64,000 bases of DNA from a virus: IMG/VR virus record IMGVR_UViG_3300005613_000018, positions 1 through 64,000 of that record; one strand, 5' to 3'. Position 1 is the stretch's first letter; the number at the start of each line of letters is the position of its first letter. Of this stretch, positions 5,781 through 7,153 are shown one piece after another. The notes beneath the pieces were generated by a model. The model made no database searches. It had not been told where the DNA came from and was given only the letters and a program-made list of their open reading frames with translations. The translations under genes were made by a program, and so were the position numbers.

Positions 5781-5967
5781 AGGTTTTGATATTAATTTTG
5801 AAGGTCTTGACATGAATCCTGATCAGGTTCAAAGTCTTCTCAAAAAATATAAGAAGATCAAAAAGTATCAGAAATCAAGTTTGTTTGCTGTCAAAACTAT
5901 GGATGGGACAGAAGATTATGTGTCTCAGATGATCAAAGAGGGAGAAGAGTACGGGCCCCTTGACTAA
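5773..5967 (+). CDS. Small hypothetical protein
   Basis: 64 residues, basic middle (LLKKYKKIKKYQKSSLF). Last gene of the run 3998-5967. Its stop codon overlaps the -35 box (TTGACT) of the next promoter. Confidence 0.55.
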   Translation: MTKGFDINFEGLDMNPDQVQSLLKKYKKIKKYQKSSLFAVKTMDGTEDYVSQMIKEGEEYGPLD

Positions 5968-5988
5968 ATAGATACAGTGGTCTATAAT
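5960..5988 (+). promoter_or_regulatory. Early promoter of the riboswitch-endonuclease unit
   Basis: TTGACT (5960-5965), 17 bases, TATAAT (5983-5988). The -10 is embedded in the palindrome GGTCTATAATAGACC (5979-5993), a possible operator. The expected start near 5995 coincides with the first base of the riboswitch-like RNA. A CTAAATA late-promoter-like motif also overlaps (5964-5970). Confidence 0.75.
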
Positions 5989-5993
5989 AGACC

Positions 5994-6051
5994 TGTCGTT
6001 CATTCTCTATTTCCGAATAGAGAACGCAAGTAAGTCGCGGAACGGAGCGTT
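5994..6051 (+). ncRNA. Glutamine riboswitch-like RNA (glnA / Downstream-peptide class)
   Basis: CGTTC (5997-6001) pairs with GAACG (6040-6044) as P1. P2 is a perfect 9-bp stem, TTCTCTATT (6003-6011) with AATAGAGAA (6016-6024), and a TCCG loop. The junction carries ACGCAAGTA, like the conserved ACGGAAGUA of the glutamine aptamers, and a GGAACG closing strand. Those RNAs are known from cyanobacteria and cyanophages, usually before nitrogen-assimilation genes or short peptide genes. Here the first gene downstream is a GIY-YIG endonuclease. Consensus recalled from the literature; no covariance search was run. Confidence 0.72.
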
Positions 6052-6061
6052 AGCAATTAGA

Positions 6062-6634
6062 ATGATTTATTACACTTACTACTCTTACGAACCCTTTGGG
6101 AGAGGCTACATTGGTAGCAGAGGATGTGAGTGTAATCCAGTGGAGGATAATTATTTTGGTTCCTATGGAGACAAAACATTTAATCCTTCCTCTAAAATCA
6201 TTCTTACCGAACATGCTACGAGAGAGGAAGCAGTTGAAGCAGAAGTAAAACTCCATGAGTTTTATCAAGTTGATACTAATCCTCACTTTGCTAATAGGGC
6301 AAAGCAAACATCTTCTTCATTTTCTTTCTGTTCTCAGGGAGAACGAATTGGTAGAGGCAATCCCTGTTTTGGTAAAGTTCGTGTTACTGACGGTAAAAAT
6401 GAACGAGTAGTTTATGAGAATGACATTCCTTCTGGGTGGTGGAAAGGTAGAAGTCGTAATCCAAAAGAATACGCTACTACTAAATCCATAACATATACCA
6501 GAGGTAAAATGTATGATGACTTTCTAAAAGATGTAAGTAAAGATGAATCTATTTTATCTTTACCTATTAGAAAACTTGCAGAAATTTATCAAACATCTCA
6601 TACTTCTATTCGTCGCTGGAAAAAATCAATCTAA
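6062..6634 (+). CDS. GIY-YIG-like homing endonuclease
   Basis: 190 residues. The N-terminus has a GIY-YIG-type layout: YYTYYSY, then GRGYIGSRGC, the DNYFGSYGDKTFNPSSKIIL segment, and the glutamate-rich helix HATREEAVEAEVKLHEFY that would hold the metal ligand. The C-terminal 45 residues (LPIRKLAEIYQTSHTSIRRWKK) form a helix-turn-helix suitable for target-site binding. It is read from the promoter at 5960 through the glutamine riboswitch-like RNA and lacks an obvious Shine-Dalgarno. It stands between phage genes as a free-standing mobile element of the kind common in T4-like phages. Its stop lies one base before the second riboswitch-like element. Confidence 0.7.
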   Translation: MIYYTYYSYEPFGRGYIGSRGCECNPVEDNYFGSYGDKTFNPSSKIILTEHATREEAVEAEVKLHEFYQVDTNPHFANRAKQTSSSFSFCSQGERIGRGNPCFGKVRVTDGKNERVVYENDIPSGWWKGRSRNPKEYATTKSITYTRGKMYDDFLKDVSKDESILSLPIRKLAEIYQTSHTSIRRWKKSI

Positions 6635-6635
6635 T

Positions 6636-6841
6636 CGTTCATCCTATGTTTGAGTTAGCACTATTAGCAAATCTAAATCGTAATCCTGAGATGACTTGTT
6701 TACAAGTCAGAGAAATTGCAGAAACCGTAGTGGAATCTGAAATGAAGGATCGTGATAAAGAAATGTTTCTGACAAGATTATTTGGCAGATACATGACCTT
6801 AAAGTGCATCAAAGAATAGGACGCACACGACTGAAGGAACG
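6636..6841 (+). ncRNA. Split glutamine riboswitch-like RNA with a gene in its P2 loop
   Basis: CGTTC (6636-6640) can pair with GAACG (6837-6841) as P1, and TCCTAT (6642-6647) with ATAGGA (6816-6821) as a 6-bp P2. The 3' half GGACGCACACGACTGAAGG followed by AACG carries the conserved GAAGGAACG strand of glnA and Downstream-peptide RNAs. Everything between the P2 arms is a 57-codon gene whose start and stop codons lie in the stem. A DUF4278 peptide gene follows at 6900, the usual partner of these RNAs. The long-range pairing is inference. Confidence 0.5.
6646..6819 (+). CDS. 57-residue protein inside the riboswitch-like element
   Basis: Runs from ATG at 6646 to TAG at 6817-6819, exactly filling the space between the two halves of the riboswitch-like RNA. 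Helical, with a LQVREIAETVVESEMKDRDK stretch, and contains two cysteines. No Shine-Dalgarno; the start codon would be sequestered if P2 formed. No family recognised. Confidence 0.55.
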   Translation: MFELALLANLNRNPEMTCLQVREIAETVVESEMKDRDKEMFLTRLFGRYMTLKCIKE

Positions 6842-6899: not shown

Positions 6900-7067
6900 A
6901 TGAACACACTTAATCTCATTCGTAAGCAGATTCAAAAAGCATCTGCTCTTCATGACGCACAAATCTTCCACACTTCATATCGTGGTGTAGAATTTAAAGT
7001 TGACAATCATGATTCAAAAGAAACTCATGGTAAATTTACTTATCGTGGTCATACTTATGAAAAATGA
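6900..7067 (+). CDS. DUF4278 peptide, PirA-like
   Basis: 55 residues with two YRG units, TSYRGVEFKV and FTYRGHTYEK, separated by a charged linker. This is the hallmark of DUF4278, the family of cyanobacterial PirA, a small protein made under glutamine-riboswitch control that binds the PII signalling protein and adjusts arginine synthesis. It follows a glutamine riboswitch-like 3' half by 58 bases, has a good ribosome site (TAGGAG) and is followed by a terminator. Known: the family and the riboswitch association. Inferred: the phage peptide interferes with host PII-dependent nitrogen control. Confidence 0.75.
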   Translation: MNTLNLIRKQIQKASALHDAQIFHTSYRGVEFKVDNHDSKETHGKFTYRGHTYEK

Positions 7068-7094
7068 AATTTAAATTAAGAGTATTGTTTTAGA

Positions 7095-7131
7095 GGGAAG
7101 AGTTGACACTCTTCCCTTTTTTGTTTAAAAT
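7095..7131 (+). promoter_or_regulatory. Composite terminator and promoter
   Basis: A 9-bp perfect stem GGGAAGAGT (7095-7103) with ACTCTTCCC (7108-7116), loop TGAC, then TTTTTT. TTGACA at 7103-7108 spans the loop; 17 bases later is TAAAAT (7126-7131). The structure ends the DUF4278 transcript and starts the next one. Confidence 0.82.
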
Positions 7132-7153
7132 AAGTCATGAATAATTTCTTCTT

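Follow-up and report, generated by a model that had tools for sequence, protein, structure and literature searches.

A putative GIY-YIG-type homing endonuclease gene within a conserved glutamine-riboswitch-like leader of T4-like cyanophages

Genes and signals at the locus

The window, that is the whole stretch of 64,000 nucleotides analysed, is part of a 99.6-kb virus contig which carries psbA, ThyX and PhoH genes and was therefore assigned to a T4-like cyanophage. One predicted transcription unit was delineated in it (Table 1), in which a promoter region is followed by one half of a glutamine-riboswitch-like RNA (half A, 5997-6044), an endonuclease ORF, the second half of the RNA (half B, 6636-6841) and a DUF4278-like gene. 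Half B is itself split by a 57-aa ORF into the pieces CGTTCATCCTATG (6636-6648) and ATAGGACGCACACGACTGAAGGAACG (6816-6841). Since promoter, half A and half B recur in this order in more than 100 related loci, the arrangement is not due to chance. A first-pass annotation had described an aptamer and then an endonuclease; the order holds, but the aptamer does not end before the endonuclease, and its second half had been missed.

Table 1. Features of the transcription unit, in window coordinates
Feature	Position	Strand	Basis
Sigma-70-like promoter, TTGACT-17-TATAAT	5960..5988	+	Sequence; same TTGACT and 17-nt spacer in 50 related loci
T4-late-like CTAAATA, overlapping the sigma-70-like promoter	5964-5970	+	92/112 loci versus 7% in shuffles
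Palindrome/hairpin around TATAAT, directly 5' of the aptamer	5979..5993	+	Arm of at least 5 in 88/112 loci
Outer P1, 5' strand CGTTC (partner 6837-6841)	5997..6001	+	Nested pairing in 249/249 loci
Outer P2 hairpin, 9 bp, TCCG loop	6003..6024	+	Sequence; P2 statistics
P3, 5' strand AGTCG (partner CGACT, 6828-6832)	6033..6037	+	Covariation, 0/5000 shuffles
Inner P1, 5' strand GAACG (partner CGTTC, 6636-6640)	6040..6044	+	Compensatory CAACG/CGTTG, nine variants
GGAG, likely Shine-Dalgarno sequence of the gene after it (endonuclease)	6044-6047	+	
Inserted homing-endonuclease element, apical loop of inner P1	6048..6635	+	Occupied/empty comparison; end pairing
190-aa ORF, apparent GIY-YIG-type homing endonuclease	6062..6634	+	PHROG 314; model and fold comparison; alignment
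Inner P1, 3' strand CGTTC	6636..6640	+	Nested pairing
Inner P2, 5' strand TCCTAT (partner ATAGGA, 6816-6821)	6642..6647	+	Sequence; P2 statistics
57-aa ORF within the inner P2 loop	6646..6819	+	Homologues in the same place in Sf-FS3, S-T4 and S-CAM9
Aptamer 3' core CGCACA-CGACT (P3)-GAAG-GAACG (outer P1 3' strand)	6822..6841	+	
55-aa DUF4278-like gene (PHROG 545), usual gene downstream of the leader	6900..7067	+	PHROG 545, 1.9e-31
Intrinsic-terminator-like hairpin and T run, end of the unit	7095..7122	+	Read from sequence

The last gene of the unit is matched by PHROG 545 and scores 20.1 bits against Pfam DUF4278 (PF14105), under the gathering threshold of 25.3; it is therefore named DUF4278-like. 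That such a gene comes after the aptamer, a point which the first-pass annotation had asked to be checked, was borne out: 230 of 233 ORFs downstream of the leader in related loci have the YRG-type motif. Rfam matches at 6989-7150 (sau-63, rliF and others) were rejected as far under gathering and largely on the terminator region.

The canonical promoter proposed earlier was confirmed, with TTGACT at 5960-5965, a 17-nt spacer and TATAAT at 5983-5988, the latter within a perfect palindrome (GGTCTATAATAGACC). The start of the RNA at the first base of the aptamer, which had been proposed together with the promoter, is less certain, a conserved hairpin and the late-like CTAAATA lying upstream; use of the latter would place the start upstream of that base. 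Among 112 loci the palindrome arms differ in sequence, and a hairpin or palindrome is found directly 5' of the aptamer even in loci without TATAAT. A T4-late-like motif, XTA[AT]ATA, ends 25-27 nt 5' of the aptamer in this set, so that the hairpin would mark the start of a late transcript.

Half A, which reads CGTTCATTCTCTATTTCCGAATAGAGAACGCAAGTAAGTCGCGGAACGG from position 5997, has a perfect 9-bp P2. Its Rfam covariance scores were weaker than its earlier description as a well-formed glutamine aptamer-like RNA implied: half A of the window alone reached 24.5 bits with RF01739 (gathering threshold 35) and 22.3 bits with RF01704 (threshold 33), for which reason it is called glutamine-riboswitch-like here. 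The composite of the window is not scorable as one RNA, being split by the insertion. Four endonuclease-free composites were above the RF01739 gathering threshold (L105, 46.4; L016, 43.6; L025, 39.6; L098, 35.6 bits), several other relatives falling under it. By their lengths these four matches span halves A and B, and in the alignment of L105 the 5' half of A is joined to the 3' half of B. The P1/P2/P3 topology of RF01739 with its conserved junctions was recovered in the related loci, with nested P1 and covarying P3 as set out below. As to a cellular counterpart, the B core was found on three contigs only among the matches listed for bacterial and archaeal genomes, which at this sensitivity gives no evidence for one. 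A PhotoRC-II RNA above gathering was observed at L016:1021-1116, on a contig which also carries a short-P2 leader.

Fold of the leader and reading frames in its loops

The fold was analysed in 249 distinct related loci among the matches listed. Its four strands, A5 (CGUUC), A3 (GAACG), B5 (CGUUC) and B3 (GAACG), can be paired in tandem (A5:A3 and B5:B3) or nested (A5:B3 as outer and A3:B5 as inner helix). Tandem glutamine riboswitches have been widely described, with 157 doublets reported in one survey (PMC9481103; also PMC2864571), and the tandem helices are pairable in 240 of the 249 loci, which would suit two ordinary glutamine aptamers with the endonuclease in the linker between them. Both nested helices, however, are intact in all 249 loci, including nine variants in which both tandem helices are broken. 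All nine combine CAACG with CGUUG, and in four CGUUU also occurs with AAACG, changes which are compensatory under nesting only; the nine represent perhaps six lineages, judged by their flanks, the CGTTT/AAACG outer P1 occurs in one lineage, and the parser allowed each P1 to vary at its fifth base pair alone. P3 (AGUCG of A with CGACU of B) is common to both halves and covaries across lineages, 131 of 178 cells being paired against a shuffled maximum of 122 (0/5000 shuffles) and at most 49 of 178 when the register is slid by one or two positions. In the 45 short-P2 loci the nested fold was more stable by a median of 2.9 kcal/mol and was predicted as the optimal structure for 26 of them, against one for the tandem fold. 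Two simple tandem aptamers were rejected on the compensatory P1 variants and, with the common P3 and the fold energies also against it, an ordinary tandem pair carrying the endonuclease in its linker is quite improbable.

The leader is thus best read as one composite RNA with its two halves nested. Its outer aptamer would consist of outer P1, outer P2, P3 and the canonical junctions CGCAAGUA and GAAGGAACG, with P3 opening into an inner, circularly permuted copy made of inner P1 and inner P2. It follows from the nested helices that the endonuclease gene occupies the apical loop at the tip of the inner helix.

As a rule the P2 loops contain small ORFs, which are under purifying selection and whose start and stop codons are situated within the P2 stem or next to it. 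The inner P2 is long in 188 of the 249 loci. Among 113 long-P2 B halves, the ATG is found at one offset in 107, and the stop codon lies inside the aptamer core in 97 (92 TGA, 5 TAA) with a TAG directly before the core ending the ORF in a further 10; when loci were chosen independently of the B core, this in-core codon was TGA 71 times and TAA 26 times. In the window, the ATG of the 57-aa ORF overlaps the 5' strand of P2, and its TAG stop (6817-6819) falls within the 3' strand. A different ORF of 65-79 aa (PHROG 6471) is carried in the outer P2 loop by 32 A halves of other phages, where the stop codon tracks the opposite P2 strand (UCUU/UAA 8/8, UCUC/UGA 5/6, UCCU/UAG 4/5). In this outer-P2 family (MLSILLALTLAHH...WHMSCER...C; L001, L006 and 30 more A-type loci) the N-terminus is hydrophobic and two cysteines are conserved, features which suggest a small exported protein.

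The loop ORFs are missing from some genome annotations (S-T4, S-CAM9), as might be expected if they were spurious and the long P2 spacings were chance recurrences of aptamer halves around intergenic DNA. That explanation is very improbable indeed, in view of the fixed positions of starts and stops, the assignment of the ORFs to PHROGs 6471, 504 and 13397, their variation at third codon positions with median dN/dS of 0.15, 0.27 and 0.21 in three families (approximate near saturation), and the existence of versions of the same aptamer in which a short P2 hairpin stands in place of the ORF. Enforcing P1 and P2 around the ORFs cost a median of 0-0.3 kcal/mol, against 1.0-2.1 with shuffled interiors; computed with the tandem-type P1, these costs support closure of P2 and not the choice of P1 partner.

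The endonuclease and its insertion site

The first gene had been described as a GIY-YIG endonuclease. The ORF at 6062-6634 was confirmed and matches PHROG 314, annotated "homing endonuclease" (1.5e-8), but Pfam and NCBIfam profiles gave no endonuclease match at the thresholds used. A PDB sequence search gave no useful match, and Foldseek alone no significant one for the model. Residues 1-80 of the AlphaFold model align to UvrC GIY-YIG domains with Z scores of 5.5-6.2, below the secure level, and these were the only fold found for this region among the matches listed. In an alignment of 29 sequences Y4/Y6, Y16-I17-G18, R20, E61 and N73/N78 are invariant, which gives the two tyrosine motifs and the conserved Arg, Glu and Asn of GIY-YIG enzymes; the invariant residues would have catalytic roles. 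Based on these residues and the modest structural match, the protein appears to be a GIY-YIG-type nuclease, and the model comprises an N-terminal nuclease domain and a C-terminal helix-turn-helix (145-190). Where relatives share no more than the first ~95 residues, their C-termini differ and aptamer flanks are absent, so that site choice goes with the C-terminal half. At L202-L239 the same N-terminal domain was found with different C-termini at other, aptamer-free sites. A nuclease-domain relative with 58% identity, S-PM2 ORF178 (L157:1501-2130), lies beside F-CphI between psbA and psbD; F-CphI itself was rejected as the closest relative, the match being to this neighbour.

The apical loop of the inner hairpin measures 3 nt (GAG) and is filled by the endonuclease gene. 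A abuts B with ~3 nt between them in the endonuclease-free S-T4, S-CAM9, S-B05 and Sf-FS3, and A lies 3-5 nt upstream of B in 105 of 105 endonuclease-free B halves examined among the IMG/VR matches listed. All endonuclease copies with readable flanks, among the matches listed, are at the A/B junction, and full-length relatives down to 52% identity occupy the same site in marine and apparently freshwater phages. The flanks of RB11-B (occupied) and S-B05 (empty) are 98.3% identical over 2.2 kb and 99.96% identical over 2.4 kb. Sf-CH5, with an unrelated gene context (transaldolase/JmjC), is 98.7% identical to the window over 6024-6657 only, and this identity starts and stops inside the aptamer. 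Fixed-site insertion with occupied and empty alleles, as expected of a free-standing homing endonuclease, was thus observed; independent contexts are few, several occupied loci having upstream genes in common and origins being judged by flanks. The empty 34-nt site was found in at least 417 phage records, once per record and nearly all from phages of Synechococcus and Prochlorococcus, and the leader without the endonuclease is its common state. Insertion between an existing aptamer and its peptide gene had been offered as an alternative to metabolite control; insertion is borne out, but the gene lies within the aptamer itself, where it occupies the inner hairpin loop.

The ends of the element form a stem (6056-6068 with 6623-6635, 12 of 13 pairs) which encloses the start and stop codons. 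Element ends pair in register with the inner helix in all lineages tested, their sequences differing; the end stem of the window is not exceptional in energy, 30% of random internal pairs being equally good. In the apparently freshwater group L191-L201 (e.g. L194:2001-2582) the endonuclease frame reads on into half B, so that the C-terminus of the enzyme is encoded by the aptamer, and in L191, L194, L195 and L199 it ends at a TGA inside the B core.

These observations are best accounted for, with a probability of roughly 0.8, by a homing endonuclease which, in T4-like cyanophages, has homed into the conserved, glutamine-riboswitch-like leader upstream of a DUF4278-like gene. The gene of a free-standing GIY-YIG-type endonuclease would have inserted into the inner hairpin at its apical GAG loop, the enzyme would cut the A/B junction of endonuclease-free genomes, and repair would copy the element in. 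Conserved through the RNA structure, the junction DNA would offer a conserved target, and the RNA may still fold because a hairpin loop accommodates the element, whose ends pair with each other.

Control of the endonuclease and relation to known systems

The first-pass annotation proposed that the endonuclease is driven by a glutamine riboswitch. Of this proposal, the shared transcript stands as a prediction: the endonuclease would be transcribed from the promoter of the leader, and no separate control region for it was found in any relative read. It probably uses, judging from its sequence context, the GGAG with which half A ends and which lies ~14 nt before its ATG, or 7 nt in L130-type alleles. 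Glutamine control of the endonuclease is thus putative: it is possible, but the position of the gene is explained by insertion.

In its strongest form, such control would be a selected trait, with half A as a complete switch and homing gated by the nitrogen state. The constant position of the endonuclease directly after A without control sequences of its own, the close GGAG spacing of the L130-type alleles and an association with A kept across 52-98% identity would all agree with this. Against these stand the poor Rfam score of half A alone and its want of the 3' junction GAAGGAACG, which is supplied by B; moreover, if the gene inserted at the A/B junction, no selection for control is needed to account for the order, and the same leader is commonly found without the endonuclease. 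Selected control was accordingly regarded as unlikely, and the riboswitch-like RNA appears to be a landing site for the endonuclease more than a proven control switch.

Beyond homing into the leader, we lean somewhat towards a nested, pseudo-symmetric double glutamine aptamer with genes in its outer P2, inner P2 and inner P1 loops, which would serve as a near-universal homing site and in which start and stop codons would be built into the helices, so that translation and ligand-dependent folding would compete directly. In the nested state the GGAG lies within the inner hairpin or next to it, and P2 contains the start codon of the loop ORF. Ligand-stabilised folding would therefore be expected to reduce initiation of the loop ORF, and possibly of the endonuclease; this is an even bet, and the direction is a guess.

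Endonuclease ORFs are carried in the peripheral loops of group I introns, and the folded RNA tolerates them there. The present gene is likewise in a peripheral RNA loop, but no splicing is involved and the host RNA is a riboswitch-like leader. As with the Seg enzymes of T4-like phages, an optional gene lies between conserved sequences with present and absent alleles, and a GIY-YIG-type nuclease domain is joined to a separate DNA-binding domain; unlike theirs, the target is a structured regulatory RNA and not a protein gene, and the element lies in a hairpin loop. SegF, one of these free-standing homing endonucleases, is cited in PMC3037559. F-CphI of cyanophage S-PM2 is also a free-standing cyanophage homing endonuclease, with an Endo VII motif and psbA as its target (PMC6083498), whereas the protein described here differs from it in site and, apparently, in nuclease fold.

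The leader shares P1 (CGUUC/GAACG), P2 and the junctions CGNAAGUA and GAAGGAACG with the glnA RNA (RF01739) and the Downstream-peptide/Glutamine-II RNA (RF01704). Glutamine riboswitches have been reported from cyanobacteria and marine samples, where they precede small genes and include doublets (PMC2864571, PMC9481103), and long gaps and intervening ORFs were dropped from the earlier doublet survey (PMC9481103). In contrast to those tandem doublets, the copies in the leader are nested with a common P3 and have genes in their P2 loops. Among the open-access papers searched, none was found to describe ORFs within the loops of glutamine aptamers, endonucleases at riboswitches or the present homing site.

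If the nested reading is true, the loops of a riboswitch aptamer can contain complete protein genes, some codons of which also serve as strands of its helices, and a regulatory RNA can provide the conserved target of a homing endonuclease. Doublets of the cyanophage kind would need re-reading as a nested structure. The interplay of ribosome traffic and metabolite binding on one RNA becomes testable, and PHROGs 504, 545, 6471 and 13397, uncharacterised families of cyanophages, are placed in a possibly nitrogen-linked control unit.
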